Positions 45,515-64,000 of a stretch of DNA of 64,000 nt are shown here, piece after piece (position 1 is the first letter of the stretch; each line of letters opens with the position of its first letter). This DNA comes from Membranipora membranacea. Taxonomy: Eukaryota; Bryozoa; Gymnolaemata; Cheilostomatida; Membraniporidae. The notes under the pieces are model-generated. The model did no database searches and was not told where the DNA came from. It worked only from the letters and a program-made list of their open reading frames with translations. Made by a program: the position numbers and the translations under genes. The stretch is taken from NCBI GenBank assembly GCA_914767715.1, contig OU612071.1, positions 6,989,493-7,053,492 on the forward strand, in the 5' to 3' direction.

Positions 45515-45520
45515 GATGGC
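45515..45520. repeat. Left target site duplication GATGGC
   Basis: GATGGC directly abuts the first base of the left TIR and is repeated at 63230-63235 directly after the right TIR. Six bases is the usual Polinton target duplication. Confidence 0.95.
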
Positions 45521-45650
45521 AGTAGTAAAAGTGGGAGCAGGTCGTTAGCCCGAACCCATTGAAACGAATGAGCGACTCGATCCCTTTTGTAACGTTCCTG
45601 GTGGAACGACTACTCATATTGTATGGGAGTTGTCAATTTCTACCCTATCA
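45521..45650 (+). repeat. Left terminal inverted repeat, 130 bp
   Basis: Matches the inverse of 63100-63229 at 129 of 130 positions (CCCT here, CTCT there, near the inner end). It contains a small internal hairpin, CGTTCC-TGGT-GGAACG. It should be the integrase substrate and the origin for protein-primed replication. Confidence 0.97.
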
Positions 45651-45726
45651 CAATAATAAGATACATACTTAATCTATGGATATTTTCAGTACTTGTTATT
45701 TGCATTTATGTCGCATTAGAAGTAAC

Positions 45727-46047
45727 ATGGTGGATGCTAGGCTACAGCGTAATATTCATGTCTTAAGAGACCTGCATAGGAGCAGAGGAGCAAACCGCAA
45801 GCGCATACTTCAGAATCTGGGTGATGACACAGTTGATGCCTTGAGCGACTGTGCATGTAATATAAGGAATGGTAATGTTCCACTTACGACACACCAATTC
45901 AGGGCACTGAAGCCATATCACAAACATTTGAAACAGCTAAGCAAAAAGTCATTATCTCGCAAGAGCAGAAGGAAGACATTAATGAAAGGAGGATTTATTG
46001 GGCTTTTACTAAAACCACTTGTTAAAGTGTTACTAGGAGGAATGTAA
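45727..46047 (+). CDS. Small basic Polinton protein with hydrophobic tail
   Basis: 106 residues from the ATG at 45727; the frame is open from 45676, but the upstream 17 residues are less typical. The N-terminal half is predicted helical; residues 71-84 are strongly basic (KKSLSRKSRRK). The C-terminus after G89 is a hydrophobic or amphipathic helix ending LLGGM. M86-K87-G88-G89|F90 fits the adenovirus protease consensus (M/I/L)XGG|X, so the tail could be released in the virion. Proteins of this layout occur at this place in many Polintons and adintoviruses; the function is not established. A role as core or membrane-active virion peptide is inference. It is the first gene of the plus-strand block, four bases before the next. 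Confidence 0.65.
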   Translation: MVDARLQRNIHVLRDLHRSRGANRKRILQNLGDDTVDALSDCACNIRNGNVPLTTHQFRALKPYHKHLKQLSKKSLSRKSRRKTLMKGGFIGLLLKPLVKVLLGGM

Positions 46048-46051
46048 GGAG

Positions 46052-46879
46052 ATGTCTTCATTGAAAAAGTATTTCCTAATTGAACCAGAAAGGTATAATG
46101 AATTGGTCAGTCACTCCAAGTCTAGAACTGATTTGTTGACACACCCGAATGTCAAGGTTTTGAAAGAAATAGATACAAAGATTGATGATATTCTCAAGGA
46201 ACCAACAACTTCAGATGTGGAAAAGCTTGACGAGTACAACTCTAATCTAGATAGATACAAAAGGAATTTCCGAAATGCTATTGAAACTTCAAGAAAGGAT
46301 GCATTCTTGACTGACCCTATACCAAGAGAAAGTAATTTGCAAACACTTAAGCTACCAACTCAATCTGTCTCCGATTCAAACTCTAATGCTCATCCCAGCA
46401 ATTCATCCACAAACACTTCAACACCGACACTGGAAAAAGCATCAAAAAAAAACATTTTTACTGAAACATTAAAAACTGTTCCAAAATCTTATCAGTCTAG
46501 CGCTGTCAGACTTTCTAAATTCATTAACTCATCAAAGGATTTCACTATGACCACCCCAGGAGTGTTGAAATACAAGGGTAATGAATGGAATATATCAGAT
46601 GCTGAGGAATTGTTTAAGAGTGCGGTAACTTATAGGAACATTTTTGGAAAGCAGAGGGAGACAGTTAATAATTTCGTCGCGGCATTAGCAGAAGCAGGAT
46701 TCCCTACCTCCTCATTACCCTATACCCGTAAGTTAAAAGCTCTAGATAAGAAACGAGTGATTGTTGATAAACTTCCATCTCCATCATGGAAACAGCTAAA
46801 GCGAAAAGACAAAAACAAAGGATTAAAAAGCACACCAACAGGAACAAAACCAATAAAGTGGGAAAAGTTCGACAGCTGA
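46052..46879 (+). CDS. Conserved Polinton protein of unknown function
   Basis: 275 residues, starting ATG four bases after the preceding stop. The N-terminal 90 residues are charged and predicted helical. A Ser/Asn/Thr-rich linker (about 105-135) follows, then a compact C-terminal domain with PKSYQSSAVRL, a short turn around LKYKGNEW, and helices to about 235; the end is very basic. I recognise the layout as common next to the integrase or capsid genes of Polintons, but no function is known to me. Its 3' end overlaps the extended frame of the integrase, though not the integrase start preferred here. Confidence 0.6.
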   Translation: MSSLKKYFLIEPERYNELVSHSKSRTDLLTHPNVKVLKEIDTKIDDILKEPTTSDVEKLDEYNSNLDRYKRNFRNAIETSRKDAFLTDPIPRESNLQTLKLPTQSVSDSNSNAHPSNSSTNTSTPTLEKASKKNIFTETLKTVPKSYQSSAVRLSKFINSSKDFTMTTPGVLKYKGNEWNISDAEELFKSAVTYRNIFGKQRETVNNFVAALAEAGFPTSSLPYTRKLKALDKKRVIVDKLPSPSWKQLKRKDKNKGLKSTPTGTKPIKWEKFDS

Positions 46880-46887
46880 GCAATCAA

Positions 46888-47943
46888 ATGTCTCAAAAGC
46901 TTACACAATTGTACTATAAACCTTCCCTCCCATCATCTCTTGGAGGGCAACAACACCTTCATGACAAAGCAGCTGATATTCCACAGCAGATGATAAAGGA
47001 GTGGTTGTCAACACAAGATGCATATACTTTGCATAAAACAGCACGCAAAAATTTTTTGAGACGACCAACAATTGTGAGTGGGGCAAACGTTCAATACCAA
47101 GCTGACTTGGTAGATATGCGCAAATATTCACCTCACAACTCCGGTTATAATTATATCCTCACATTGATTGATGTGTTTACGAAGTTTGGTTGGTGTGTTC
47201 CTCTTAAAACGAAACAAGGGAAAGAAATAAGTGCAGAATTGGGAAAGATTTTATCCACTTCACCATGCAAGGATTTGCAGACTGATAAAGGAAAAGAGTT
47301 TTACAACTCATCGGTCAAAACTCTGCTGAAAAAGCTTCAAATAAGGCACTTTTCTACCGAAAATGATGATATTAAAGCGTCAATTGTGGAGCGTTTCAAT
47401 CGTACTATTCAATCTAAGCTCCATCGTTGGTTTACATATACTAACACATATGGATGGACCCAAGTGATAGATGATATAACGAAAGGGTATAATGCCACCA
47501 AACACTCTGCGACCAAGGTTCCTCCCAAAGATGCAGCAAAAGCCAACCAAGAAGATATATGGCTCAACCTTCACTTCCGAGAGAGTCTCCAGAAACACAA
47601 AAAGAATGACATTAACATAAATGACCCAGTGAGAATAAGCAAGTATAAGCATGTTTTTGCAAAAGGATATGACCGAAACTGGTCAAGTGAGGTATTTTTT
47701 GTTGACAAAATCGAAAAGACATTTCCAACATACAGGTTGCGAGATCAAAAAGAAGAAAAGATTCATGGAACATATTATGCAAACGAATTACAGAAGGTCT
47801 CTTTGCCAAAGACATTCATTATCGAGGATATTATACAAGAAAGAGGAAATAAGCGTAATAAGGAATACTTTGTGACATATAGAGGCTACCCTAGCAAATT
47901 TAATGAATGGATTAGTGCTGAACAATTAATAAAATTGCGATAA
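46888..47943 (+). CDS. INT: Retroviral-type integrase with chromodomain
   Basis: Inserts the element's DNA into chromosomes by DDE strand transfer at the TIR ends. The frame is open from ATG 46786, but the ATG at 46888, nine bases after the previous stop, is preferred because it avoids overlap and places the typical LYYKPSLPSS start near the N-terminus (about 351 residues). In numbering of the longer frame the catalytic residues are D107 (QADLVDM), D167 (QTDKGKEF) and E202 (SIVERFNR), with 34 residues between the last two. About residues 345-383 form a chromodomain (VTYRGYPSKFNEW, aromatic residues kept), which could steer integration to modified histones. Intact, no stops. Confidence 0.93.
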   Translation: MSQKLTQLYYKPSLPSSLGGQQHLHDKAADIPQQMIKEWLSTQDAYTLHKTARKNFLRRPTIVSGANVQYQADLVDMRKYSPHNSGYNYILTLIDVFTKFGWCVPLKTKQGKEISAELGKILSTSPCKDLQTDKGKEFYNSSVKTLLKKLQIRHFSTENDDIKASIVERFNRTIQSKLHRWFTYTNTYGWTQVIDDITKGYNATKHSATKVPPKDAAKANQEDIWLNLHFRESLQKHKKNDININDPVRISKYKHVFAKGYDRNWSSEVFFVDKIEKTFPTYRLRDQKEEKIHGTYYANELQKVSLPKTFIIEDIIQERGNKRNKEYFVTYRGYPSKFNEWISAEQLIKLR

Positions 47944-47990
47944 ATAATTTTGTCTCCTCACTTACTGTCTCTACGCACTCCAGGGCAGTC

Positions 47991-48746
47991 ATGAGCAATT
48001 CATTTTATGTAGTTCTGCCATCAAATGCATCTTTAAAATTTTTTCCAGATAATAAACTTCATTCATATAAGACTAAAATCCCAAAACTTCCAATTCATGA
48101 TGGTGCCTGGGAGGTGGGAATGACAGAAATTCAGTTTCCTGCCAGATGGCCAAATGTCATGAATGCAAAGGTTTGGATTAAATTCTCCAACGGAACAATG
48201 ACTGAGTTCAGTTTGCACGATGGGTTTTACCCCTCTGTTGAAAAGCTGGTCTCCGAAATAACAAAGGTCATCAGCAATGCTGGGTGCACGGGTAATTTAA
48301 GTATATACTATGACGAGCTTCGTGATAGAACAGCTATAACAGTGAAGGGTAATGAAGTAGCCGGTGTGACTTTCACAGAAAACCTAATACAGATCATGGG
48401 TTTTAACAAAAACCATGGCGAGTTATTTCTAAATGGAGTTCATTGGTCAGGCGCAGCTAGCGATATCAATGATGGTTTGGTTGGGCTATTTGTGTACACA
48501 GATATTATTCAGCGTAGATTGGTTGGAGACGTAATGGTGCCATTGCTCAGAGTTGTACCGGCTGAGCCATCTCGCCAAAGCTCAACATTTAAGTGGGTTA
48601 CTTTTCAAGACGTGCAATATGTTCCAGTTGTCTCCACACATACAGACACAGTGGAGGTGAATATAAGGCGAGACGATGGAGGAATAATTGCATTTGAGAA
48701 AGGAAAGACAAACGTGACGCTACATTTCCGGAAAGTCAAACCATGA
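47991..48746 (+). CDS. Polinton minor capsid (penton-like) protein
   Basis: 251 residues beginning MSNSFYVVLPSN, the usual start of Polinton minor capsid proteins. The family is predicted to form a single jelly-roll that occupies capsid vertices, like adenovirus penton base. Beta-strand-rich throughout: WEVGMTEIQFP early, LRVVPAE in the middle, and VTLHFRKVKP at the end are family-like segments. No transmembrane segment. Its TGA overlaps the next ATG as ATGA, pointing to coupled late expression with the following gene. The assignment rests on family resemblance and on its place in the capsid gene block. Confidence 0.85.
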   Translation: MSNSFYVVLPSNASLKFFPDNKLHSYKTKIPKLPIHDGAWEVGMTEIQFPARWPNVMNAKVWIKFSNGTMTEFSLHDGFYPSVEKLVSEITKVISNAGCTGNLSIYYDELRDRTAITVKGNEVAGVTFTENLIQIMGFNKNHGELFLNGVHWSGAASDINDGLVGLFVYTDIIQRRLVGDVMVPLLRVVPAEPSRQSSTFKWVTFQDVQYVPVVSTHTDTVEVNIRRDDGGIIAFEKGKTNVTLHFRKVKP

Positions 48747-49171
48747 GTAGATCATATAGCTTTGATACCCCGTCAAACATATTACATAAACATTACAAAG
48801 GAAATGCGTACCAACAAGGTGGCTTTATACCTGTATTTCGCGGTGCAACAAGACAGCGTGGCTATGGGTTAGGAGGTGTCTTCACGCGTATTTTTAGAAG
48901 TTTTGCGCCAACTCTCAAAACTGTAGCAAAGTCAGCTGGCAAGCAACTACTAAAGACAGGTGCTAACTTTGCTTCTGATTTGATTGATGGACAGAAACTT
49001 TCCACTGCTGCAGTCAAAAATTTGACCTTAGGTGGGAAGAAACTTATTAGAACTCTAACCTCAGACATAACTGGAGGCAAAAGGGGAGGAGTCAAGAGGA
49101 AACTGGCTGTGGGAGGTTTGAAGGGCAATAAAAAGCGACGGCTACAGAAGAAGCGCGACATTTTCTCATAG
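48743..49171 (+). CDS. pVI/pX-like basic virion protein
   Basis: 142 residues, overlapping the penton gene by ATGA. The N-terminus is short, then a Gly-rich stretch leads into a long amphipathic helix (about 44-83, GGVFTRIFRSF..). The C-terminal third is Lys/Arg-rich (KRKLAVGG, KKRRLQKKR). I109-T110-G111-G112|K113 fits the adenovirus protease consensus. Layout and position resemble adenovirus pVI/pX and their Polinton counterparts: membrane-active and DNA-condensing virion peptides. Which of the two it corresponds to cannot be told from sequence reading alone. Confidence 0.6.
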   Translation: MSRSYSFDTPSNILHKHYKGNAYQQGGFIPVFRGATRQRGYGLGGVFTRIFRSFAPTLKTVAKSAGKQLLKTGANFASDLIDGQKLSTAAVKNLTLGGKKLIRTLTSDITGGKRGGVKRKLAVGGLKGNKKRRLQKKRDIFS

Positions 49172-49176
49172 GCAAA

Positions 49177-50526
49177 ATGACAACAACAGGTGAATATCAA
49201 AAACTTGACAAACATGCTGTGGAAATTGCTATGGATGAATTACAGATCTTTGACAACATTCACGTCAACACAAATCTTAAGGAATCTGAGATCCATGAGA
49301 TAACACCAGAGACGCATCCTCAAGGCTTAGAACCAGTGACATTCGAAATAACCGGATCCAATACTCACTACTATGATCTTGCAAACTCGTTACTTCATCT
49401 TCAGATCATGATTCAGAATTCAGATGGAACTAAATTGGATACTGATGGAACGAAAGTTGTTGTAACTCCATCACAGCAGATTTTTCATAGCTTGATTTCT
49501 AAGTTCTCAGTACTGCTTAATCACAAACAAGTTGAAGATAATGTACATTATGCACACAAAGCATTTCTTACCAACATTTTGAATCATGATGACGGAGCTA
49601 AGCACACTCATTTGCGAACAGTTGGATGGATATCAGACGACATGATTGAGGAGCATTCTGAGCAATTAACTGGTACTCAAGACGCAAAAATGAAAGCAAG
49701 GGCTGCAAAGCTAGCGGGAAGTCCAGTACTAGACCTCATTGGAAGATTGAACTCCCCGATTTTCATGCAAAAAAAGTATATGTTGCCAGGGGTTTCAATG
49801 AGGTTTGAATTGCAATTTAACAGCCCACAATTTGTCCTACAACATATTAAAGGTGTTACGGATCCGCATGATTACAAAATTGAGATTGTTAAGGCATCAA
49901 TGCTGATGAGAAGATTAGAAGTGCATCCGTCTGTCAGCATCTCACATATTGAGACTCTGCGTAAAACACCAGCCAAGTATGTAATGAATGGGTCGGATGT
50001 CAAGTTCTTTACGATCTCACCAGGAAGAGGAAGTGAAACAATTACGGTATTATCAAACCAACAGGAGCCCAAACTGATCATTTTTGGTATGGTAAAGCAC
50101 TCTGCCAAGAATGGGTCCTACAACCACTCCCCATTTAAGTTTGAACCATTTCACCTATCATCCATCAATGTTATGGTTAACAACAACTATGCGCTGAAGA
50201 AACCACTAGTAGTTGACTTTGAAAAGAATATCTATATGAGAGCTTATCATAATCTTCAAACAGTGTGTGAGAAAACCTTCACAGAGCAAGGTAACGGGAT
50301 AACACCAGAACATTTTAAGAGCAGCCTTTGTCTCTATGCTTTTGATTTGACAAGCGATTGGTGTCATGGTGAAGGGACCCATCTGCAGCGCATAAGTGAC
50401 ACAAAAGTAGAACTTACTTTCTCCCAACCACTGAATGAGACTGTCAATTTGATGGTTTACTATGAGTATGACGAATTACTGAATATTGATGAATTGAGGA
50501 ATGCAAGTTTGGCATCGGTATCATGA
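49177..50526 (+). CDS. MCP: Polinton major capsid protein (double jelly-roll hexon)
   Basis: 449 residues starting at ATG 49177, five bases after the preceding stop. The family usually measures 430-650 residues. Characteristic segments are ELQIFDNIHVN near the N-terminus, EFEITGS-like VTFEITGSNTHYYDL, SPIFMQKKYMLPGV in the middle, and FTEQGNGITPEHFKSSLCLY near the end. Homologues are often annotated in animal genomes as 'uncharacterized protein F54H12.2-like'. It is predicted to form trimeric double-jelly-roll capsomers like adenovirus hexon. Intact. The stop overlaps the protease start as ATGA. Confidence 0.9.
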   Translation: MTTTGEYQKLDKHAVEIAMDELQIFDNIHVNTNLKESEIHEITPETHPQGLEPVTFEITGSNTHYYDLANSLLHLQIMIQNSDGTKLDTDGTKVVVTPSQQIFHSLISKFSVLLNHKQVEDNVHYAHKAFLTNILNHDDGAKHTHLRTVGWISDDMIEEHSEQLTGTQDAKMKARAAKLAGSPVLDLIGRLNSPIFMQKKYMLPGVSMRFELQFNSPQFVLQHIKGVTDPHDYKIEIVKASMLMRRLEVHPSVSISHIETLRKTPAKYVMNGSDVKFFTISPGRGSETITVLSNQQEPKLIIFGMVKHSAKNGSYNHSPFKFEPFHLSSINVMVNNNYALKKPLVVDFEKNIYMRAYHNLQTVCEKTFTEQGNGITPEHFKSSLCLYAFDLTSDWCHGEGTHLQRISDTKVELTFSQPLNETVNLMVYYEYDELLNIDELRNASLASVS

Positions 50527-50984
50527 ACTCACAACAGCTAAGGAATATTTTGAACAGTGATGAGCACACATCAAGGCTGAACCCGAGTGTTAAATCATTG
50601 GATGAATTTGTGAACACCGAGATATTTATTCCATCAATGAATATTGTCAACTTTGACCAATCTCATCAGCCAGGAAGCCATTGGATCGCGGTGAATATAA
50701 CAGACTCCGGAAGCATAGAGTACTTTGACTCATATGGAGACACTGTCCAAAATATTTTGATTGATACCAAACTAAAACAAATGGGAAGAATAAAGCGTAG
50801 TAAACATGTATTGCAAGGGATTTCTACAGTTTGTGGACAATATTGTCTTATTTTTCTGTTGATGCGAGCAAGAAACTACTCATACAAAAATATTTTATCT
50901 AAATTGAGACAAGTTGACTCATCAAGGGAGAGGGACTTTATTGTTAGCCAAGTGATCAATGACCTTTATTTTGGAAATATTTAA
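50523..50984 (+). CDS. PRO: Adenain-like maturation cysteine protease
   Basis: 153 residues of the Ulp1/adenain fold. Catalytic residues by motif: H53 (GSHWIAV), D69 (EYFDSYG), Q98 (LQGIST) as the oxyanion-hole residue, and C104 (TVCGQYC). The family processes capsid-associated proteins during virion maturation; likely substrates are the GG-site proteins at 45727 and 48743. It starts inside the major capsid stop (ATGA). It is the last gene of the plus-strand block, followed by AATAAA at 51034. Confidence 0.92.
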   Translation: MNSQQLRNILNSDEHTSRLNPSVKSLDEFVNTEIFIPSMNIVNFDQSHQPGSHWIAVNITDSGSIEYFDSYGDTVQNILIDTKLKQMGRIKRSKHVLQGISTVCGQYCLIFLLMRARNYSYKNILSKLRQVDSSRERDFIVSQVINDLYFGNI

Positions 50985-51033
50985 AAAAAAAAGGTAGAAG
51001 TTTTTGATAAAAATATGCTATATAATGAAAATC

Positions 51034-51039
51034 AATAAA
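51034..51039 (+). terminator. Polyadenylation signal of the plus-strand block
   Basis: AATAAA 50 bases after the protease stop; another AATAAA lies at 51117-51122. The 315-base gap between the convergent protease and polymerase genes holds nothing else recognisable. Confidence 0.6.
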
Positions 51040-51299
51040 TATTTTAACAGAGCACAGATTTATACAGTAAACATCCATGTGGAATACAAATGCAAATGAA
51101 TATACATGGGAAGTTTAATAAACCACAAGAGTAAGCATTTCTCATCACGATAAAAGGAGGTGAGACATTAGAAAAATATCATAGAAGCATAGACACCATA
51201 AGTGGAAGCATGTACATGTTATCATTTAAAGAAATTCAAGGGTGAGTTCAGAAATCAGTGTTCATGCATAGTATTTAGCGCAATATTTTTCATAATACA

Positions 51300-54200
51300 C
51301 TATAAATTAATAGGTGAAGTAGACACACCATCATCACAAACTAACCGTTTCGCGTAGAAAAAAGAAAGTCCAGACCTTAATTGGGTATATGTGACCATTG
51401 AGTTTTTCTTTCTCATGATCCCTTTATTTGTACCAAAAACAGGTTTTTTGGTGGTAAGTGTGCCAAGAAAGTGTGCTTTGTTGAAAGAATTCAAATTACG
51501 CATTATTCCTTTAGTGCTAGTTTTACTGGTTGATGCATTGAAAGTGTGATAGGTTTTGGCGTTTAGTGCAATGATCCCAGTGCCTGAAAACTCCTCTTTA
51601 AACAAACCAGGTGTTCGCTTATGATATACATGTACAGTCTTACAGCAAGGTTGCATGGTCCATGGAAGACCTTGAACTTTAGTCTCAACGAAGGATTTTT
51701 TATGCTCCGCACAGAATTCAGGGATAAACCATTCACCAAATTCTTCAAAATACTGTTGTCTTAAGTTCATGGGAACCAAAGATTCCAAATCCCCACATGT
51801 AGCAAAATAGGCCGAATCGGTATCCATGCACACATACTCAAAAGAAGAATCGTGAAAGAATTTTTGCATGAAATCATAATAGAACTGCAGCATGCGTAAC
51901 TTGGCAATTTGCAGAATAGAGAAGCCTATTATTATGGGAGTATCAAGTTTTATTTTCTTTTTACTCAACTCGATCTCAAATACATCGTCATCCAACTCCT
52001 CTATAGACATAAAATTTTTGTTGTTGACATATGAGTTAGCTGTTTTGAGGTCAGTTGTATATTTGATATCGGTAAACCGTTCCTTATTAATTATAGTGGC
52101 CCCAAAAATAGCGTTACCCTGTAACTTAGCGGTGTCAGATCTGACCTTGGTTGAGGGGTCACCATCACCTTGTCTTCTTTCATCACAGATTGCTTCTCCA
52201 AACTCACGGAAACACCGATGTTTTTTGAATTGAACTATTTGGTAAATTTTCGAGATCTTTAGTCCATGGTCAATGTACCATTTCAGCAGAGATGTTAATA
52301 CCAGAATTTTTTTACCAAACATACTACCAATGAGGGATCGCTGTGGAGTTCGATACAGATTGTTCTCAATCGCAAAGTTCTTCATCAGAGGGGAGAGATC
52401 TTCCCGACTGATGCTAACATTTTTGAAAATTGGTGGCATTTCCTGAAACTTAGATTGTAAATCAGTTGGCACATGTACATCACATTCTACAAGACCAAAA
52501 AAGCTCTCTGATTCTATTGCTGAAATAATTTCACTCTCAGTCATCGATTTCTTTTCACTCATATCTCTAAAAGAAAGTTTTTTCACAAATCTAGAGACCA
52601 TCCTAGATGATTTTTTTTGTTCTAACCACTTGCACTCAAAAATAGAGACAACTTTGAAACCTAGCTTTTGTAAATATCCCTCCTTTTCTACTGTGTCCTG
52701 ATACAATTGTTGATAAGGGACACCATTAATGGGATTTGTTCCCTGATTGTTCGTGTTTGGGCATTGTGGGATTGGGCATCCGTGAAAAATACAGCCGTGA
52801 AACTGGTATACGGTGTTATTTTCTTTGCAAAATCCATCAACTGGTAAGGCATGCTGACCCAAATAAATTTCACCTTGGTTATATTTGTGTCTGATATGTG
52901 TCTTTGTCAAGTGAGCATTGAACTCAAGCCACTCATTGGCTAAACGCCCTCGAACATCCACAAAGCATGGATAGAAATTTTCGTCACATCGTCGTCTGAT
53001 CATACAGCCGGTTGGTAAAGGCTGCATCGCTGCATATAGATATAAACTATTGGCATCATAGCCTTTTATCTGTTTACAAATTTTTGCCTGCTGACCATAT
53101 TTATTTGACTTAAGATAGGTTTTATCACACTCATGGTACCTATGAAACACAAGTGCTGGCCCTCCAACAATGTTATCTCTGATTGTCTTATGTAAGTCTG
53201 AATTTTTTTGAGATATGAGTGGAATAGAAAATTCATTTGTCAATGACTCCTTGAAAAGCCATTTTGTAGCAAGTGATGGGACACTGACAGCATCTTTGAG
53301 CATGTCTAAACCTTTTGAGATGTACACAGAGGACTGTTTCTCAAGAGCCTCAAGAAATGGGACCACATCCAAATTGTTGTACCATATCAGGAAATCACGC
53401 ATGGTTTCCATATTGTGATCACGCCATATCTTTTTGCAGTAGTCGTATTCATCATGCGTAATATTGGACTGTCTAAGGGATGAATAAAATGCAGAGTGAG
53501 GGGGTAACGTAGTCGCATCAAGCATGTCCAAAGAAGTGATGTATTCATACGGGAAGTAGCCTTTTTGCACAGAACAATTGTAAGCTTTTAGGAAGGACTC
53601 ATAAGAAAATCCTGGCGCGATATAATTAGTGGCATCTACAAATTTTAATTTTTTGGTTTTAATACATTTCATACAATTGTTTCTTTTTATTGCAAATTTT
53701 ATTTGATCTGTTTGACATAGGTGACGGATCAAAGGCGCACGGATGACATTTAAGTCATACTTTTGACCGTTAAAAGAGACCACTGGCAGTTCCGCTAAGT
53801 GGTCTTTGAGCTTTTCGATAAGACTACCAATACTATTGGATTGATATTTTGCGGGATGGGACCAATGTTTCTGTGAGTATTCTAATTCGGTTTGCATGCG
53901 CATGCTATCTAAGCTCTCAAGTTTTTCCAGCAGGGGGGAAACTTTTTCTAGACACAGAGAGTATGCAATATCACTGAGATGAGACAAGTAAATGACAAAT
54001 TTTTTAACAAGCGTGTCAGTGTCTCCATCACTTACTAAACAAAATGGATCAAGGTACCCAGGGATGTTGGAACACACACTGATGCTCATGAGCTTGTGGT
54101 CATTGTTAAAAGTCAGCTTGGGTGTGTTTTCTAAAGTGGACTTGGGTAAGTAGCACTCGATATCAAATGTCACACGATAGGGATAAAACCGTAATTCATT

Positions 54201-55541
54201 AGGAATGGTAAGTCCTGTCCTATTCTCTATCTCGTCAAAGATATTACCCGGTGGGTGAAATACATCTTTATCAAATCTGTAGCGTGATTGCTGCTTAGCA
54301 CAAATTTTCCTATGTCGCAGAAGGTTATTTTTTCTAGGGAAGCTCAACTTGCATGTTTTGCAAGTAAAACACTTAGAAAAAGTTGACATATCTTGTATGT
54401 AACAGAAGTGTTTGCCAACCATACACAAGTTTAGCTCTACTTTGGACTTACTCAATGATTGAAACAACAGTGTGCAGTTTCCATCACTTGACAAGCTGTA
54501 TACTGATATCTTGAGGTCAAAAATCTTTTCGATAGATGTCAAATCATCTAAAGTCACCCCTTGGAACTCAGAGGCTGAAGGTAGAGATCCACCAATGTAT
54601 TCAACAAATCTATGGAGCAAGTCATGTATTTTTACCAAACTGCTTTTTGGAAATAAACAGTCACATCGCTTTTTACAAGTGCAATTTTGTTTCAAGTAGA
54701 GTGCACGGAAGAAACAAAGATTATCAGAGATGGGTTTGTTGTTTACTCCCCTCTTTAGAGTTTTGACACATTTCAGTTTTTTTATATGTGATGGAATGTT
54801 ACCGGGTGATCCAATCTTGGGAAACGGAAGTTTACTCAGGTAAAATGATATATTTGTTACATGAAGGACACCCCATGAACTGTTGGGTCGATTGGCTTTT
54901 GCCTTTTCACATAAGTCCACACTTTCTAGAAGCTCTGCAACATCTTGCATGTCTGTTAATGATTTAATAGTCATGGGCTTATCGAAAATCATCGTGTTGT
55001 TTGCAGAACTATGGTAGTATCTTAATTCGTCGGTATTGGTGTTTTTGAGCACATAACCTAAGCAGCATTGAAGCTTGACTTGTTTGGATAATTTTGTAAG
55101 CCAAAGGTTGCATAGAGCATCATATATTGTCACAGATTGATTTATCAGTCGGAAATTGAATATGTCAACAATTTTCCTACAACGAAAGTACGTTTTGATG
55201 GCTTCCCAATTTGACTTAAGGATGTCTTTAAGAGGAGATGCATGTGCAAAGGTTTCTACCTGGGTGGATTCATTTGTGTCATTGTGATTGATTGCACCGC
55301 CAATCTGTTGGGAGGCACCATCTGATCTTGACACAGTAGAATTGATTGCTTTCGAGCACTTCTGCTTGTGTAAGTTCAGTTGGTGGCGCCTGGTAAAGTT
55401 CCTGCCACAGCTATCGCATTTAAAACCGATAAAGTTTTTGTCGTGTTTGGTCTTAAAATGCCTATTGAGATTGGATTTGGTTGAGAACTCAACTAAACAC
55501 ACTTTGCACATGTACATTGATAAAGTGTTATTGCTTTCCAA
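51300..55541 (-). CDS. pPolB: Protein-primed DNA polymerase B with OTU-like and Vsr-like domains
   Basis: 1,413 residues in one exon. Order: two zinc fingers (C12, C15, H28, H33; C42, C45, H58, C62); an OTU-like cysteine protease region with D263/C266 (SDNLCFFRAL) and H378 (GKHFCYIQD); a third finger (C394, C397, H410, C414); 3'-5' exonuclease motifs D460/E462 (FDIECY), N591/D596 (FNGQKYD) and D725; polymerase motif A D829 (GYDANSLY); a Vsr-like endonuclease insertion about 880-975 (VDGFCKEN, QFHGCIFHGC, FECKW); motif B K1139 (KLQGNAIFG); motif C D1240/D1242 (MDTDSAY). It should replicate the linear element from the TIRs with a protein primer. All catalytic motifs are intact. It converges on the capsid block and lies 66 bases downstream of the next gene's stop. 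Confidence 0.95.
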   Translation of the reverse strand: MESNNTLSMYMCKVCLVEFSTKSNLNRHFKTKHDKNFIGFKCDSCGRNFTRRHQLNLHKQKCSKAINSTVSRSDGASQQIGGAINHNDTNESTQVETFAHASPLKDILKSNWEAIKTYFRCRKIVDIFNFRLINQSVTIYDALCNLWLTKLSKQVKLQCCLGYVLKNTNTDELRYYHSSANNTMIFDKPMTIKSLTDMQDVAELLESVDLCEKAKANRPNSSWGVLHVTNISFYLSKLPFPKIGSPGNIPSHIKKLKCVKTLKRGVNNKPISDNLCFFRALYLKQNCTCKKRCDCLFPKSSLVKIHDLLHRFVEYIGGSLPSASEFQGVTLDDLTSIEKIFDLKISVYSLSSDGNCTLLFQSLSKSKVELNLCMVGKHFCYIQDMSTFSKCFTCKTCKLSFPRKNNLLRHRKICAKQQSRYRFDKDVFHPPGNIFDEIENRTGLTIPNELRFYPYRVTFDIECYLPKSTLENTPKLTFNNDHKLMSISVCSNIPGYLDPFCLVSDGDTDTLVKKFVIYLSHLSDIAYSLCLEKVSPLLEKLESLDSMRMQTELEYSQKHWSHPAKYQSNSIGSLIEKLKDHLAELPVVSFNGQKYDLNVIRAPLIRHLCQTDQIKFAIKRNNCMKCIKTKKLKFVDATNYIAPGFSYESFLKAYNCSVQKGYFPYEYITSLDMLDATTLPPHSAFYSSLRQSNITHDEYDYCKKIWRDHNMETMRDFLIWYNNLDVVPFLEALEKQSSVYISKGLDMLKDAVSVPSLATKWLFKESLTNEFSIPLISQKNSDLHKTIRDNIVGGPALVFHRYHECDKTYLKSNKYGQQAKICKQIKGYDANSLYLYAAMQPLPTGCMIRRRCDENFYPCFVDVRGRLANEWLEFNAHLTKTHIRHKYNQGEIYLGQHALPVDGFCKENNTVYQFHGCIFHGCPIPQCPNTNNQGTNPINGVPYQQLYQDTVEKEGYLQKLGFKVVSIFECKWLEQKKSSRMVSRFVKKLSFRDMSEKKSMTESEIISAIESESFFGLVECDVHVPTDLQSKFQEMPPIFKNVSISREDLSPLMKNFAIENNLYRTPQRSLIGSMFGKKILVLTSLLKWYIDHGLKISKIYQIVQFKKHRCFREFGEAICDERRQGDGDPSTKVRSDTAKLQGNAIFGATIINKERFTDIKYTTDLKTANSYVNNKNFMSIEELDDDVFEIELSKKKIKLDTPIIIGFSILQIAKLRMLQFYYDFMQKFFHDSSFEYVCMDTDSAYFATCGDLESLVPMNLRQQYFEEFGEWFIPEFCAEHKKSFVETKVQGLPWTMQPCCKTVHVYHKRTPGLFKEEFSGTGIIALNAKTYHTFNASTSKTSTKGIMRNLNSFNKAHFLGTLTTKKPVFGTNKGIMRKKNSMVTYTQLRSGLSFFYAKRLVCDDGVSTSPINL

Positions 55542-55607
55542 ACAGATTAAATGAGTGTAGTAGTAGGAAGAAAAACAAGTTGAAAATATAACTAATAACT
55601 AATATAA

Positions 55608-58600
55608 CTATAAAGACAGATAGTCAAAAGACCCGTCTGCCACGGGATTAGGAAGATTTCCTGACCTTGTGGGGAGTATCTCCTCCAATCTTGCTATATT
55701 GATTTTTGGCATGATGTTAACTGCCTCTCCAATTGTTGCCAGTCCGAGCTGGACAACATATGATACACGTGTTTGGTTTCCTTTGCACGCTGCTCCTAGC
55801 TCCAATGCATCCTCGAGTGTGAGTGTCTGCTGACAGTTGTATAATCTAATCAACAAAAAAACTCGGGGATTACTTATCGATTTGTGAAGGTTTTACATGC
55901 AAATGTGATAGAAATGGCAATGAGTCACTTTATAATCTACACTACGAAGCCAACTGGCAAATCAAAGCTGTATATAGGTAATGAAGAGAAGAAGACTATT
56001 ACTCACACTGTATCAGTATTCTCTGGTGTTCCTCTTATCCTGAGACGAGCATACTGACTTCTGAAACGTTTATTGACCTTGGTACCCATAAAACATTTCT
56101 CATACTTGCTCTCTATTGCAGCAAGCGCCCGTGCCAACGGCGAAGATACTGCCGGTGAAACCTGATACCCGCGGATTGTTTTTGTTCCGTATTGGTACCT
56201 TGGGCTAATAACTGCAAAAACAACAGAAAAATAATGACATTTTGACAATAGTAAAACGACACATCATACAACAGCTGTCAATACTTTGAAATGACACCAC
56301 TGCAAAAATACCTGAAGCATTTGTCACTTATTCTATTCTCAATGTAGTGCAGTGTAAGTCCAATAACAGTGTTTAAATATTTAGTAGTTGTCCTATCCTT
56401 GCATAACATAACTCCCAAAACTAAACACAATACCAATAGTTAACCATTTTTACAGTTGTCCTTTTTTTGCAAAGTCAGTTCAGAGAAGAAACAACTTATA
56501 AAACTTACATCCTTCCGACAGTTGGTGAAGAGCAGTGATGCTCAATGGTCTTCTGAGTGTGTCCGACTTGTGCCAGACGTCACCATCCTCCTATAATCGT
56601 AAATATATAAGTTATATTTAAGGATTGTCGTTATACTCTATTTATAATGTGCAATTTACATGTATATGAATTCCATTTTTAAGGATTATGCTAATACTCT
56701 AATTATGATAAACATATGATATGAATGTGGAGAGTTTGTCATGAGAAGGATAAGAAGAATCAATAAATGGAAAACATACGTTTAGTTCGACGTCATCAAT
56801 ATCAAAGGCCTCCACCTTCACAGGGAAAACCACTAGTCCAGGAAATTGAGTTGTTGGAGGAGTTGGTGGTAGAAGTAGGGGCCTTTGTTGTGGTGGTGGA
56901 GGTGTTGGCTCTGGGGTGCTAGGCTTTTGGGAATTCTTTGCACGTTGTTGCTTGAACTCCCTCACAACTGACGAAGTAGACGGCTCTTCGTCATCTAAGT
57001 CAGGGAGTTCTCCATCATCATCCACTTTTGGTAGTGGGAGCTTAATTAAACTCAGCTTCGTCATGTTCTAAAATGATCATAATCAGAAAATTATTTAATT
57101 ATTTGAGAGTATATTATTATGAATTCAAACAGGGATGTATTGATCACAGATATACCTTGGGTTGAGAGATGGAATCTGATAAAATGATTTGATACACCAC
57201 CAAACTAGATGCATGGTATCATTTATAATTTGGGAATGCAAGTTAAGAAACGTGAGTCACCTTTTTGGATGGTTGGATGGTTTTTTTCTTTCGTTTTGGA
57301 ATCGGTGCATCAAGCATATCACCATTACCATCAACATTCTCCTCCTCACTATCGCTGAACATCTATAAAAAATAATTTTTAAAATAAGTCCAACGCAATG
57401 CGGACAACAAGCACACTTAGGTACGATGGTATACACATTGGACTTTGTCGGAGATAAATATGCATCAATGAAAGTCACTCGTGAATGACAGTTTGATACT
57501 TTGATAATCTAAAGTAAAATGTGCTTACCCGCTGATAAGCTTTGCGCTTCTTGGAGTGGGAAGCATGTAACTCATCTCTTTTTTCATCGTCTTCCGACGA
57601 TAGGACAATAGGTTCGTCGTCAACTTCATTATCAAGCTGAAATGAATAATTCCATGCTCATTACACATTAATCTTTCAAAAAGAGAAACAAGCTATTTTC
57701 AGAGTGTTGCTTTGAAATAACAGCCAGGTCATTATTCACCTGACTTTCTCATCAATCAAACTTTGACATAAGATGTGTAGTTACTATGCATTATAACGCT
57801 GTAAAAGTAGTACATTATAATATGTGAATTGAATTAAAAACAGACTCTAATAACTCACTCTTTTTAGTTTCTTTGCCGGGGACTTCCCTTTACTTGAAGC
57901 TGGTCTTTTTTTTGGACACTGTATCTGAAATTCATTCTCAAATTCTTCCTGAAACCAAACAAGTTTGGAGTTATCAATTCAATACAAGTCAATTCAATGC
58001 TAGGTTGCCTAGCAATGGTAACAGTAATTACAATAACATGTACTTCACTCCATTTAATCCCCGCACATCAAATTATGCATCAGGCAATAATTCATGAAAG
58101 TTACTTACCATTTCATCATCATATGCACCATCAGACAATTTAACCTCCTTAGCTTCATCGTCAAGAAACATACGTTTGGCATAGGAGCTCATCGCATCAC
58201 CTCCAATTCTCTTGGGCATCTAAAATGAAACAAAATGAAAAATGAATGGTTTGCTTAAAACTGAAATGCAGCTGTTTATGCAAAAATACAACATTATCAA
58301 TTTAAAACTGTTTATTGCAAAAAAAAATTTTTTAAACCAAATATGAATCAATACTCTGTTCACGCATCATTGAAATTTAGTCTCTACAACGATTATTGAA
58401 TGAGGTACACCCCAAACACAGATGGTTACAAAAAGAAAATAATGAGTTAAAAGATGAGCGTTTTCGACACGCCCTCAGGGTGGACCTAATCTTCGCTAAA
58501 AAACTGAAAAAAAAATCTTGGGCAATTTACAAAAAACACACTACAATGAAACTTAACCAGTAAAGTCAGCATTCTTACATGAATGTTGGTCCTCATGTCT

Positions 58601-58680
58601 GTTGACAGACAACCACCATCTCCCATATGGGATCTTTGCCCAGGTTTGTCATATTGACATCCAAAACAAGTGTCTAGCAT
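55608..58680 (-). CDS. Intron-rich Polinton gene: Cys/His-motif acidic/basic protein
   Basis: Ten exons on the minus strand: a non-coding one (about 58880-58795), then 58680-58579, 58219-58109, 57948-57859, 57636-57529, 57362-57261, 57067-56780, 56590-56509, 56211-56007 and 55845-55608. All introns are GT-AG; phases are 0 six times, then 1, then 2, and together encode 441 residues without a stop. Residues 5-24 form a C-x2-C-x9-H-x5-C motif (CFGC..H..C). Exon 4 has a bipartite nuclear-signal-like KKRP..KKLKR. Exons 5-6 are acidic with KKRKAY and PKRKKK patches. Exon 7 is Pro-rich (TPEPTPPPPQQRP). The C-terminal ~150 residues look globular. The Cys/His motif is reminiscent of proteins in other Polintons; function unknown. 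A nuclear regulator or DNA-binding protein is inference. Confidence 0.8.
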
Positions 58681-58904
58681 CTATAATATAAAAAAATTAA
58701 AAAAGATTAAAAAAGAATTTCAAAACAAAAGTAAAAAAATAAAAATGAAAAAAACAAAGATCATTGTATGTGAAAACATTTAAAACAAACTTACGATTAA
58801 TATTTGAAGGAAGATCAAATCTGCTAAAGAAGAGTGGTGGCTTCTTGTGAGCTTAGTGAATTCAAACTAAACTGGAAGAATGTGTTGGCTATTCCAGCGC
58901 TGAG

Positions 58905-58912
58905 CTTTTATA
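58905..58912 (-). promoter_or_regulatory. TATA box of the intron-rich gene
   Basis: TATAAAAG on the minus strand, about 30 bases before the start of a leader exon that ends at a good donor (TTAATC|gtaagt, 58795/58794). Spacing fits a TATA-dependent Pol II promoter. Confidence 0.65.
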
Positions 58913-59067
58913 CCTTGGTTTCCAGCCTAAAATCTACACAGCTTAGAGGTGTCTTAGAGGGAGGGTTACTTTTCTGTTGCATGAAAAAATATTAATGTTT
59001 GCCTGTAGCTCCAATGATTACTGTGTTCAACAACCCATGACTAAGATATTTCTGTGTTCTGAGATAA

Positions 59068-59073
59068 TTTATT
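59068..59073 (-). terminator. Polyadenylation signal after the packaging ATPase
   Basis: AATAAA on the minus strand 82 bases beyond the ATPase stop. Confidence 0.5.
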
Positions 59074-59154
59074 GACTACCACTTAGACTTTGAAAAATTA
59101 ATTGATGAGTGCTGTTTAACCCTTGTGGAAACATCAGTTCTTTAGAAAAAAATA

Positions 59155-60568
59155 TCACTTTGTTAAATAGACAACGCTTGGATTTTCAAAAATCTTAGCT
59201 CGCACACGAGCTTTTTCATCACAACCCGGGGAGCAATTCAAAAACAGATAACCATAACGATCTTTCACTGCATCCAAATAAGCTTCTATCACAAGTTTTT
59301 CCTTACCCATTTGTCTGCCAATTGTTTTGATTACTGAAATGTCTCTCACAGATTTCATCAACCAGAAATGGTGTGAGTTCAAACTAATCGTACGAAAAAA
59401 TGGTCCTTTACAAAATAGATTTTGTGTCAGTGTGATTATACTATAATTATAATGATGACTAAATTTTGTATAAAAGTCAGCAATATCCTTAGAGCTGGAG
59501 ACTTCCTCCATTAAATCATCAATGACTAGAAGTCTATGCTGTCGATCTTTAGGTAATGATTCCATTGTTGCTAGCCCTTCTATAAATTTTATTGGCACCG
59601 AGGCATCATAAGAGTTGTAAAGTGGTTGGTAGATTGAGTAACAGATAATTATTTCCACAGGCGGTGGAACAAAGATTTTGTCAGCATTGGAAATAATCTC
59701 CCTTAGTAGGGTAGATTTACCACTTGATGTTGGCCCTAGAAACAGACAGCATAAACAGTCAGCAGGTCAGAGATTGTGACTAAAATTCTCTCATCTACAC
59801 ACATACATCGAATATTGCTCATCATTTCACTATGACCTCTTAAGTGTTTGTTTCAAGTTTGCAGCCACAGATGATTAATTACTGTTATGCGAGCTAATCA
59901 TCACATGATAACTGTACCTCCAAGTACTGGAAGTGATGAAAATTAAGGGAAGGATTTTGGTAATGAAATGCTCATTAAATTTCTCCACACACAGATGTAA
60001 TTACTGTTATGCAAGCTAACCATCACATGATAACTGCACCTCCAAGTACTGGAAGTGTTGAAAATTAAGGGAAGGATTTTGGTGATGAAATGCTCATTAA
60101 ATTTCTGCAGACACAGATGTAATTACTGTTATGCAAGCTAACCATCACATGATAACTGTACCTCCAAGTACTGGGTGTGTTGAAAATTAAGGGAAGGATT
60201 GCGGTAATGAAATGCTCAATAAATTTCATATTTTATGAGAGTTTTTACCCGCAAAAGTTCCGATAATATGGAGTTTTTACCCGCAAAAGTTCCGCTTCTG
60301 GTCTAATTTTGAACGCATTAAGGAGATTAGTTAGTCATTCAGCACCACCCTTTGACGTCAATTACAAATAGCCTTGGTTGATTGCTCGGCAAATTCGCTG
60401 TCATAAATCCCAACATGAAGTTTCATGAAGGCTCACCTCCGCTATGGATATGAGGCACATATAACCATGCTTAAGGTCAAAAAACAACTAGATAAAATTC
60501 TTACCTGAGATTATAGATGTGAACGGTGCCTCAAGTTGAAATTCTGTCGTCTTAAGATTTGAAGCCAT
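59155..60568 (-). CDS. ATPase: Packaging ATPase (FtsK/HerA, A32-like), two exons
   Basis: Motor that pumps DNA into capsids. Exon 1 is 60568-60505 (21 codons plus one base), exon 2 is 59735-59155; the 769-base intron has GTAAGA and CTAG ends. The spliced product is 214 residues. The Walker A motif (GPTSSGKST) starts at the codon split by the intron, so neither exon alone carries it with its leading strand. Walker B is RLLVIDDLMEE, and LTQNLF and MKSVRD are family-typical sensor-region segments. The start ATG follows the preceding stop by one base (TAG-T-ATG). Length fits Polinton ATPases. The intron holds three tandem 121-bp repeats. Confidence 0.92.
59865..60228. repeat. Three tandem copies of a 121-bp unit in the ATPase intron
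   Basis: AATTACTGTTATGC recurs at about 59877, 59999 and 60120, each followed by AAGCTAACCATCACATGATA, CCTCCAAGTACTGG and AAAATTAAGGGAAGGATT in the same order. Copies differ by a few percent. Confidence 0.9.
60239..60294. repeat. Direct duplication GAGTTTTTACCCGCAAAAGT..
   Basis: A 24-base string occurs twice, at 60239-60262 and 60271-60294, period 32. It lies inside the ATPase intron just beyond the 121-bp repeats. Confidence 0.85.
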
Positions 60569-60569
60569 A

Positions 60570-60770
60570 CTAGAGTGTAGAGTTTGTTGACTTTGTAGTG
60601 GATTCAAAGTTTTCACCGAGGAGTTTTATGATAGAATGAAGCTCTCCTTTCTCTTGTTGAAAAAACGCTGCACACAGCGAACATATGGTGGCTATGGTAA
60701 TCAGGATAATTGTGAGAAGTGCACGGTATTGTGATAAAAACTGTCTGGTTGTGATATCAGACACAGGCAT
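60570..60770 (-). CDS. Small single-pass membrane protein
   Basis: 66 residues from ATG 60770. One hydrophobic segment (about 18-38, LLTIILITIATICSLCAAFF) follows a short polar N-terminus; the C-terminus is charged then Ser/Thr-rich. Not recognised. It sits six bases after the 112-residue gene and one base before the ATPase start in the minus-strand block. A virion-membrane or entry-associated role is only inference. Confidence 0.6.
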   Translation of the reverse strand: MPVSDITTRQFLSQYRALLTIILITIATICSLCAAFFQQEKGELHSIIKLLGENFESTTKSTNSTL

Positions 60771-60776
60771 AGTAAA

Positions 60777-61115
60777 CTAACGTAAATGAGGGGGTAATGT
60801 CACAGTATAGGGTGCGTCTGGTAACAGTACCACGATCTGACTGAACAAAGTCTCTTTCTTTGCCTTTATTAAATATCTTGTCACAGGTCTATGAAGTCCT
60901 GATGGAATCATCTGCATTGCGATTTCATACCAAATATCAAAATGGTGACGTAATTTGTCAGTGTGCAAAAGATACATGTATTGATTTATAAGTTGACAGT
61001 CATGATGAGAGAAGTCTGTATAGCCTTTAGAATTACAGCCTTGACAATTTTTGCTGACCTGAAGGGAGATTAATTCCCACAAAGTAGCAGCCATAGATGC
61101 ATCTGTTTTATCCAT
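60777..61115 (-). CDS. Small Cys/His-motif Polinton protein
   Basis: 112 residues. C24-x2-C27 and H37/H38-x-C40 (NCQGC..HHDC) form a possible zinc site close in spacing to that of the intron-rich gene at 58680. The following region (YLLHTDKLRHHFDIWYEI) is helical. Its ATG lies inside the 3' end of the preceding gene (8-base overlap). Similar Cys/His proteins occur in other Polintons; function unknown. Confidence 0.6.
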   Translation of the reverse strand: MDKTDASMAATLWELISLQVSKNCQGCNSKGYTDFSHHDCQLINQYMYLLHTDKLRHHFDIWYEIAMQMIPSGLHRPVTRYLIKAKKETLFSQIVVLLPDAPYTVTLPPHLR

Positions 61116-61638
61116 TATGTTGTAGCCATAGACTGATTATGCTAAATAACAGCAAAGTAACCAATACATAAAGTATCTGCAGTGTCACTGTCTGAAATCT
61201 CATGCGAACGATAGCTTTATTTAAAGTTCTGCAAAAACTGTTTATTGATTGGGTGGTTATTATACTCCTCACTTCATTTTTGCCCAATGACAAAAATACC
61301 TTTTGTAGAATAGTCAATAATGTGATAGAATGAAACAGCAACTTCTTGCTGTTTGTGGAAGAAGATAAGATTTCTTCACAGAGGGAGGCATAGGTCTGTG
61401 AAGTTTGGCTGGCAGATAAGATTTTTCTTGATATCAATTCAATATCATTTACATACAATTCTTCCACATTTTGTTGAATCATGTACAGCGTGCTGGATTT
61501 GTCATCCATCAATGTCACAGATAGAGGATAACATTTCCCTGCAAGATTGCTTAGCAAATATTGCCTTGCATTGATGGGTGAACTCAGATGTTTCAACAGG
61601 TTAATATAATCACTTGTCTCTTCTAACCGTTCCATCAT
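61108..61638 (-). CDS. Late-type protein with C-terminal membrane segment
   Basis: 176 residues from ATG 61638; the frame extends to 61656 only through a GTG, and an acceptor-like TTTCCTAG just upstream suggests either a direct start here or a spliced leader. Mostly helical and polar. The C-terminus (about 150-172 of this start, LQILYVLVTLLLFSIISLWL) is a clear transmembrane anchor. No homology recognised. First gene of the minus-strand block that ends with the ATPase. Confidence 0.6.
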   Translation of the reverse strand: MMERLEETSDYINLLKHLSSPINARQYLLSNLAGKCYPLSVTLMDDKSSTLYMIQQNVEELYVNDIELISRKILSASQTSQTYASLCEEILSSSTNSKKLLFHSITLLTILQKVFLSLGKNEVRSIITTQSINSFCRTLNKAIVRMRFQTVTLQILYVLVTLLLFSIISLWLQHNG

Positions 61639-61681
61639 AGGTTGCCTAGGAAACACTAATATGAATAGGTATCTTCCGAGT

Positions 61682-61690
61682 AATATATAA
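61682..61690 (-). promoter_or_regulatory. TATA-like element before the minus-strand late block
   Basis: TTATATATT on the minus strand, about 45 bases before ATG 61638. This region (61657-61824) separates the leftward block from the rightward gene at 61825, so it is probably a divergent promoter region. A (CA)n tract lies at 61749-61760. Confidence 0.45.
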
Positions 61691-61824
61691 CCACTTGGTT
61701 CACTGGTATTTAAGTGCTTGCCTGCTTACCAAATTCACTCACGGACGCACACACACACACAGACGGACTTACACACTACCAAAGTGACTATTTGTTTGAT
61801 CTATTATAGGACACTTTTATCACT

Positions 61825-62437
61825 ATGGAACATGTGAGTATACACATGTACTTTGCTTTATTTTTCCTACTATAATTATAATATTTTTTATGTTTCAATT
61901 TTTTTACCTTTGTTGTATATGACTTGACAAATTGCTTATGTGAATTTCCATTGCTCAGAATACTATGTTGGCTTGGTAACTAGTCATGGGTTTTTTGTTG
62001 CAGACTCGTTCCTGTACAGAATGCGCCAAAGAAATGTTTCCTAATGGTGAGGAGCTGTGCCTCACGAGACAGACGGCAAAGACAGATGAATTAAAAGAAA
62101 TATTTGCTGCTGAAAGTTTTCACTGTCCGACATGTGAGAGTAGAGTGCCAATAATGGATGCCAAACGTAAGTACATACATTCAGTACACTAACCATCGAT
62201 GTTTTCTGAAGGTAGTGATACTTTCATTACATTCCTGAAGGCAATTGTCATTAATACGTGAACTCAAACTTCTGTGTTGTAGATGTAAAGAGGTTGCAAC
62301 ATCGATTCAAAATTATGAGATCGGATCTGGTGCGTAAAACAAGAGCGACACTCAGGGAATTGGCAGCAGCAGAGGCAGAGTTAGATAGAAATATGAGACA
62401 AAAACTACGACGAATGGCAATTAAAGACAGTCTGTAA
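61825..62437 (+). CDS. Three-exon small zinc-motif protein
   Basis: Exons 61825-61833 (only nine coding bases, ATG GAA CAT, donor GTGAGT), 62004-62166 and 62283-62437; junction phases 0 and 1 agree and the product is 108 residues. C7-x2-C10 (SCTEC) and C44-x2-C47 (HCPTC) form a probable zinc ribbon, with H58 and H64 following. The C-terminal third is a Lys/Arg/Glu-rich helix (LRELAAAEAELDRNM). The pattern FHCPTCESRV slightly recalls the zinc-ribbon start of CoiA-like nucleases, a weak resemblance. The only clear rightward gene of the right half; an early regulatory role is inference. Confidence 0.7.
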
Positions 62438-62455
62438 TCTTTAATTGATAACTAA

Positions 62456-62722
62456 TCATTTTTTCTTCTTTTTTTTGTTAATTTTTTTTATCTGTTTTTC
62501 TACTTTTTTGTTGTTTTTATCCAGGGCAGCGTAATTTGCGTTGGAATGGTGGGTGTCAAAGTTATGTTCATCAGCTTTATGCTCATCAAAGTCATAGCAT
62601 GAGTCTGGCGTTGTTACCCTGCTACCTACGGGAGCACTCACAAATTGCGTTGCCAATTTTGTCAGATCAGGAATGCTTGCACCTGCTACCAGTAACATGT
62701 AAACTAGTACAATCTGTTCCAT
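62456..62722 (-). CDS. Possible small secreted or membrane protein
   Basis: 88 codons from ATG 62722. The N-terminus (about 1-18, QIVLVYMLLVAGAS) resembles a signal peptide or anchor; the middle is Asp/His-rich (DEHKADEHNFDTHH) and the end is a Lys run that comes from a T-rich tract. No homologue recognised. It is convergent with the gene ending at 62437 and does not overlap it. The composition might be chance. Confidence 0.35.
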   Translation of the reverse strand: MEQIVLVYMLLVAGASIPDLTKLATQFVSAPVGSRVTTPDSCYDFDEHKADEHNFDTHHSNANYAALDKNNKKVEKQIKKINKKKKKK

Positions 62723-63099
62723 GGGCTATGTCAGATGCCTAATCTGTCAACTTTGCATTCATTTATTCCCGTGTTATTTTATGTGATTTTATGCATGTAT
62801 CTCATTTCAAAACCTTGTCTTTGCCGCATTGTCCTCAGATTTTTATTGAAATTGTTTTAACACTTCAATGAACATATATATACAGCTGCTCATTTTGTAT
62901 ATCAATTTATCATTCTACCCTGTACCAATGAACATTTATCCTCACAAACAAACTGACACTCAATTCATTAATATTTACAACAACACTAGCTAACAGTGAA
63001 TGTGATCAATCACATTACCCACACAAGCATCTCATTTATCATGAATAAATATACATAAAAAGAATTACATAAACAAACTTCCATCCTCACCATACAAAA
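62723..63099. other. Non-coding AT-rich right end of the Polinton
   Basis: About 380 bases between the last ORF and the right TIR, without a recognisable gene or repeat. Confidence 0.5.
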
Positions 63100-63229
63100 T
63101 GATAGAGTAGAAATTGACAACTCCCATACAATATGAGTAGTCGTTCCACCAGGAACGTTACAAAAGGGATCGAGTCGCTCATTCGTTTCAATGGGTTCGG
63201 GCTAACGACCTGCTCCCACTTTTACTACT
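63100..63229 (-). repeat. Right terminal inverted repeat, 130 bp
   Basis: Inverse of 45521-45650 with one substitution. It ends ..TTTTACTACT. Confidence 0.97.
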
Positions 63230-63235
63230 GATGGC
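63230..63235. repeat. Right target site duplication GATGGC
   Basis: Identical to 45515-45520. The empty site would read CTGGTCT-GATGGC-TGAGTATC. Confidence 0.95.
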
Positions 63236-63960: not shown

Positions 63961-64000
63961 TTTACAGCATTCTCCATCTGAGATGTAGTTATTGAATAGA

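Follow-up and report, generated by a model that had tools for sequence, protein, structure and literature searches.

A young Polinton family in the bryozoan Membranipora membranacea with a packaging ATPase gene split by a predicted intron

The element analyzed here occupies positions 45521-63229 of the window, the 64,000-nucleotide stretch of Membranipora membranacea DNA that was studied, and is very probably a canonical Polinton (Maverick) from a young family, 22 copies strong, that was amplified recently. More tentatively, and with appreciable doubt, we propose that the family is still moving and that it obtains its packaging ATPase only via a spliced nuclear message, the intron having been acquired by this lineage immediately ahead of the Walker A motif. 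As a Polinton family it is ordinary and young and probably still competent, and the split ATPase is its one real oddity.

Termini, genes and relatives of the element

The first-pass annotation gave the element these same boundaries, with 130-bp terminal inverted repeats (TIRs) differing at one base and a 6-bp target duplication, and all of this proved correct. The two arms are the sole inverted pair of at least 30 bp within 44500-64000. A chance origin of the repeats and the duplication was ruled out by the 22 copies with the same ends. The features are as follows; the pieces of the ATPase gene are given in the last section.

45515-45520, no strand: left 6-bp target site duplication, the same six bases as 63230-63235
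45521-45650, plus strand: left TIR, 130 bp, starting with an (AGT)2 motif
45676-46047, plus strand: small basic accessory protein p124, open frame
46055-46879, plus strand: accessory protein p280, open frame
46786-47943, plus strand: RVE integrase with a C-terminal chromodomain (Pfam rve and Chromo)
47991-48746, plus strand: p274, candidate minor capsid protein or penton (PX), by position and gene order
48743-49171, plus strand: basic protein p157 in the PW position, open frame, with a weak Pfam match below cut-off
49177-50526, plus strand: major capsid protein (MCP), double jelly roll, by fold
50523-50984, plus strand: adenain-like cysteine protease (Pfam Peptidase_C5 6.3e-4, 19.9 bits against a cut-off of 21.3)
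51300-55517, minus strand: polymerase, open frame of 1432 codons from stop to stop
55605-57660, minus strand: accessory region made up of short open stretches that may encode a spliced acidic/proline-rich protein
60570-60770, minus strand: small protein p68, membrane type as judged by eye, open in 12 of 12 copies compared
60777-61115, minus strand: p119, in the PM/PZ position (by position only), open in 12 of 12 copies compared
61108-61638, minus strand: p205, lineage-restricted (9 database proteins only), with a C-terminal hydrophobic stretch
61980-62192, plus strand: small CxxC zinc-type open frame, with a weak CoiA_N match (7e-4) below cut-off
63100-63229, minus strand: right TIR, 130 bp, one mismatch to the left arm
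63230-63235, no strand: right 6-bp target site duplication, the same six bases as 45515-45520

Termini, duplications, integrase, MCP fold and gene order all bear out the assignment to Polintons. The integrase matched Pfam Chromo above cut-off (1.2e-6) and rve below the curated cut-off (1.4e-6), and it matched foamy-virus-type integrase chains in the PDB at 9e-6 to 1.4e-4. Pfam searches with the polymerase itself gave no direct polymerase match, and its assignment to the protein-primed family B polymerases comes from its relatives at 41-46% identity, many of which, among those listed, bear PF03175; the named ones at 41-43% are from starfish, sea cucumber and amphioxus. The Cys and His of the OTU, the D/E of the exonuclease and the aspartates of motifs A and C were kept in 32/32 aligned sequences, and protein priming is predicted. 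One residue of motif B is constant in 31/31 relatives and changed in the 7/7 family copies read. The MCP has a double jelly-roll fold like that of the Mavirus and Sputnik virophages, with only about 10-12% identity in structural alignments. The protease and the packaging ATPase were recognized from Pfam matches below cut-off together with position, and the ATPase would need splicing. To judge from these protein families, protein-primed synthesis by the polymerase, starting at the inverted repeats, would copy the linear DNA, the integrase would insert the DNA with 6-bp target duplications, and the MCP, the penton candidate, the protease and the ATPase would package it.

The assignment of p274 as a candidate minor capsid protein or penton rests on position, gene order and constraint. 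Its position is that seen in vertebrate Mavericks, and one gene separates it from the MCP, as described in the accessible part of PMC4028283; three library searches with it gave no match and a fourth yielded a single weak hit (E 0.016), in a family whose function is not known. Two family searches with p124 were empty and a third gave one weak match (0.037), and a 103-residue match of 79.6% identity, with 2 stops inside, lies at the left end of one copy of a second family in the same genome (family 2, described below). The p280 frame is broken by a frameshift in 1 of 7 copies compared. The nine database matches of p205 comprise two identical proteins marked as the window's own and seven that are 79-91% identical. 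In 2 of the 12 copies compared a stop interrupts its stop-to-stop frame ahead of the first ATG, and a predicted model of its fold was unusable as a guide to function (pLDDT 41). Between 55599 and 57807 indels among copies occur only at 56351-56625 and at 57807, and the sole internal indel of the CxxC frame is of 3 bases; the stretches 55605-57660 and 61980-62440 resemble additional genes, either small or short and spliced. At gathering thresholds, Rfam returned no match anywhere in the window. A separate integrase-like fragment at 113-520 of the window, 33% identical to the integrase of the element over 138 aligned positions, is probably part of another mobile element.

Compared by description with the vertebrate Mavericks in the accessible part of PMC8097293, the element has the same two facing modules (int-mcp-PW-MCP-pro against polymerase-ATPase-further genes), (AGT)2 termini, 6-bp duplications and a similar size range, and likewise purifying selection on core genes and many intact copies per genome; counterparts of PM and PZ are guessed from position. 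It differs in its split ATPase, where theirs is intronless, and in about 3.5 kb with accessory frames between the polymerase and the ATPase. The Polintons of Krupovic et al. 2014 (PMC4028283, accessible part), again compared by description, share the double jelly-roll MCP, a position one gene from the MCP for the penton (here a candidate), the protease and the ATPase. Adintoviruses, as defined in the part of PMC11071296 available, share an N-terminal OTU-like domain of the polymerase and a C-terminal chromodomain of the integrase. Both were found here, the chromodomain by Pfam and the OTU by its Cys and His residues. That definition also includes recognition of the hexon by reciprocal BLASTP, and the element was matched on the other criteria only.

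Copies in the genome, insertion sites and age

The first-pass annotation had proposed a search for other copies with the same TIR, and such copies abound. In the 339-Mb genome (18 contigs), 40 of 44 candidates were scored and gave 40 repeat matches, all 98-100% identical, which fall into 18 pairs with a spacing of 17.71-17.73 kb plus 4 unpaired ends. The 4 absent ends were recovered from small pieces at the expected partner positions, one of them as only 29 bp of repeat. The family has at least 22 copies, 21 with both repeats whole, and searches with the MCP, the ATPase and the polymerase each return the same 22. Exact 6-bp duplications flank 20 of the 21 whole copies, the exception being C5:14075601. 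Because up to 38 intact Maverick copies are reported in one fish (Barreat and Katzourakis 2021, PMC8097293, accessible part), high copy number alone is not new.

The copies at C7:6916557 and C7:7513418 have flanks in common over 1.5 kb on each side (99.9 and 99.7% identical), which points to a segmental duplication that carried the element along, so the 22 copies represent 21 insertion events. In random draws with 8 contigs pooled into one, 4 event pairs at most 200 kb apart were found against 0.25 expected (1/5000 draws), 1 pair within 50 kb against 0.06 (302/5000 draws), and 7 pairs within 2 Mb against 2.4 (80/5000 draws). This clustering may reflect either local reinsertion or a preferred region. 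Local clusters lie at C7:6.92-7.10 Mb and C2:22.32-22.47 Mb, and C7 holds 6 of the 21 events (p 0.006). Two copies (L036 and L043) apparently lie within tandem satellite arrays, judging by their self-similar flanks. Two places on C7 were examined for an empty site of the window copy by way of a larger duplication, and none was found there.

The copies are very similar to one another. A 5.5-kb block (5,554 columns, 7 copies) had 42 variable columns, 5 of them private to the window copy, and a 7.5-kb block (7,539 columns, 12 copies) had 89, of which 4 were private to it, so that its private substitutions come to 9 over the roughly 13 kb compared. Neither the 6 other copies in the first block nor the 11 others in the second have large deletions there, and the most that any of them differs from the window copy is 23 substitutions in the first block and 33 in the second; two copies have no private substitution at all in the 7.5 kb. 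The ends of all 22 copies are separated by a full element length. With so few private substitutions, few differences and no large deletions, the insertion was recent in relative terms, and the earlier suggestion of a recent insertion stands. Present mobility of the family is plausible.

Constraint on the virion genes

Most copies keep their major genes open. Of the 22 copies, 20 have an open MCP frame, 18 a polymerase frame open over its full length, and all 22 an open exon 2 of the ATPase; when the three lists were merged by position, 16 of 22 copies had all three open and 6 had a broken MCP or polymerase. Among the 7 copies (of 22) that were read closely, the polymerase carries an insertion in one and the integrase a stop in one; in the left block read, the copy with the integrase stop also has a stop in the MCP. 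The window copy shows no stop or shift in the frames compared, and to that extent the description of it as intact was right, but its ATPase is split and its integrase is one codon shorter than in 6/6 other copies read.

We counted nonsynonymous and synonymous variants in 12 gene pieces, with the window copy counted once and only one member of the duplicated pair included. Among variants present in at least 2 copies, 9 were nonsynonymous and 12 synonymous, which is 0.24 times the neutral ratio (p 0.0013). Private variants numbered 37 and 18 (0.66, p 0.16), and comparing the two classes gave p 0.068. An unsplit count over 11 pieces for all genes was 42 against 24 (0.48, p 0.006), whereas the MCP, p274, protease and ATPase together gave 22 against 9 (0.66 of neutral, p 0.28). 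The MCP of young copies alone gave 8 against 2, and the integrase 3 against 2 (p 0.27). The young copies thus show constraint overall, but these counts do not show it for the capsid genes taken separately.

Family 2 allows the same genes to be compared over a longer time. It has 5 copies in the same genome (C3:15.76 Mb, C3:27.84 Mb, C6:26.43 Mb, C7:3.03 Mb and C9:9.23 Mb), with an MCP 84-85% identical to that of the present family (family 1) and open in all 5, an ATPase exon 2 that is 94-95% identical, and, at one end, a repeat 73% similar over 92 positions. Two family 2 copies gave an MCP dN/dS of 0.03 and 0.04, and a single copy gave 0.06 for p274 and 0.10 for the integrase. Because synonymous divergence between the families is saturated (dS 2.3-3.0), these ratios are rough and the order of dN is safer: 0.10 for the MCP, 0.16 for p274 and 0.24 for the integrase. 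The MCP is thus under constraint between the two families, and tighter constraint than the integrase. Lineages farther away, with MCP matches of 26-56%, comprise open as well as decayed copies.

These results bear on whether the family makes virions, a capacity that, as the first-pass annotation noted, is predicted for Polintons with such a gene set. The fold of the MCP and its constraint between the two families favor that capacity, but the variation of the capsid-module genes among young copies, indistinguishable from neutral, does not add to it, and virion formation is predicted here from the genes and their divergence. The family might instead spread only as a germline transposon, with the virion genes as carried passengers that are no longer used. 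The near-neutral capsid-module genes and private mutations of the young copies would fit such a life, as would the clustering of insertions (4 pairs at most 200 kb apart where 0.25 would be expected), but between families 1 and 2 the dN/dS of the MCP is 0.03-0.04 against 0.10 for the integrase, and the MCP remains open in 20 of 22 copies; we therefore consider disused virion genes unlikely, although a real contender.

A different possibility, which we rate slightly lower, is that element-length database contigs are free viral genomes and that the family is infectious now. Proteins identical to p205 of the window lie on contigs of up to 17,811 bp, and for relatives of the MCP, the polymerase and p205 (98, 97 and 91% identical) the longest contig is in each case 18,037 bp, presumably one and the same contig. 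These lengths of 17.8 and 18.0 kb fit whole elements, free and integrated alike. Assembly of a multicopy integrated element, however, also yields contigs that end near its ends, and the identical entries were marked as the window's own protein and possibly come from assemblies of the host itself. Scans of IMG/VR with the MCP, an MCP alignment, a polymerase alignment and a 24-base repeat pattern, and of GTDB with the repeat pattern, gave no relatives among records from which those near the window's genome were possibly left out. According to the accessible part of PMC8097293 (2021), animal Polinton particles have not been observed, and a literature search for later reports gave none for animal Polintons among the matches listed, by title. 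The present family makes the virion question testable, with 22 near-identical copies, 16 of them with three open genes, and an MCP more constrained than the integrase.

The split packaging ATPase gene

The first-pass annotation had listed open frames for the integrase, PolB, ATPase, protease, and major and minor capsid proteins. This holds for the integrase, the protease, PolB and, by fold, the MCP; the minor capsid protein is assigned by gene order only, and the ATPase frame has no ATG upstream of its Walker A motif. The pieces of the ATPase gene are the following.

59155-59735, minus strand: packaging ATPase, exon 2, from Walker A (Pox_A32 7e-4 and Adeno_IVa2 1e-3, both below cut-off)
59736-60504, minus strand: predicted GT-AG intron of 769 nt (by donor, acceptor and phase)
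59866-60227, no strand: tandem array of 3 x 122 bp inside the intron (second estimate 59876-60241)
60505-60568, minus strand: packaging ATPase, predicted exon 1, from ATG to donor (21 codons and one base)

A textbook acceptor lies immediately before Walker A, and 769 bp upstream a frame with an ATG ends at a CAG|GTAAG donor in matching phase. The donor and the context of the acceptor are unchanged in 11/11 other right-block loci. In family 2 the same two edges lie 524 nt apart and would form a GC-AG intron with a GC donor (2/2 copies read). Exon 1 has 20 of 22 residues alike in family 2, with 2 synonymous and 2 nonsynonymous codon differences, but its conservation is weak proof by itself because the intron, too, is 82-88% alike between the families (against 77% for MCP DNA and 69% for integrase DNA). 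The ATPase and the intron are far more alike between the families than the integrase is, which may be due to recombination. Among four distant-lineage loci read, two near-identical ones cross the intron point without a gap. Since these loci are gapless and the edges are present in both families, the gap looks like an intron gained in the lineage. The likeliest source of the ATPase protein is a spliced nuclear mRNA.

That the ATPase is instead a broken gene, split by a repeat-bearing insertion with packaging lost in the lineage, we regard as distinctly improbable: the missing ATG before Walker A, the tandem array within the gap, the GC rather than GT donor of family 2 and gap DNA no more diverged between families than the coding DNA of the MCP and integrase could be read that way, but exon 2 is open in 22/22 and 5/5 copies of the two families and 94-95% identical between them, and phase-matched splice signals stand at both edges in both families.

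According to the accessible part of PMC8097293, intact elements showed no introns, a result that it describes as agreeing with Kapitonov and Jurka 2006, and the intact vertebrate-type Mavericks described there have intronless core genes; here the ATPase frame is split and splicing is predicted. In the literature covered, mostly as titles and including the accessible parts of PMC3671162 and PMC6431247, no paper was found that reports an ATPase intron in a Polinton. The predicted intron is an exception to the absence of introns reported for intact elements. If our tentative reading of a still-moving family with a spliced ATPase is true, assembling virions would require expression in the nucleus, and spliced reads of the ATPase would readily mark a productive cycle.
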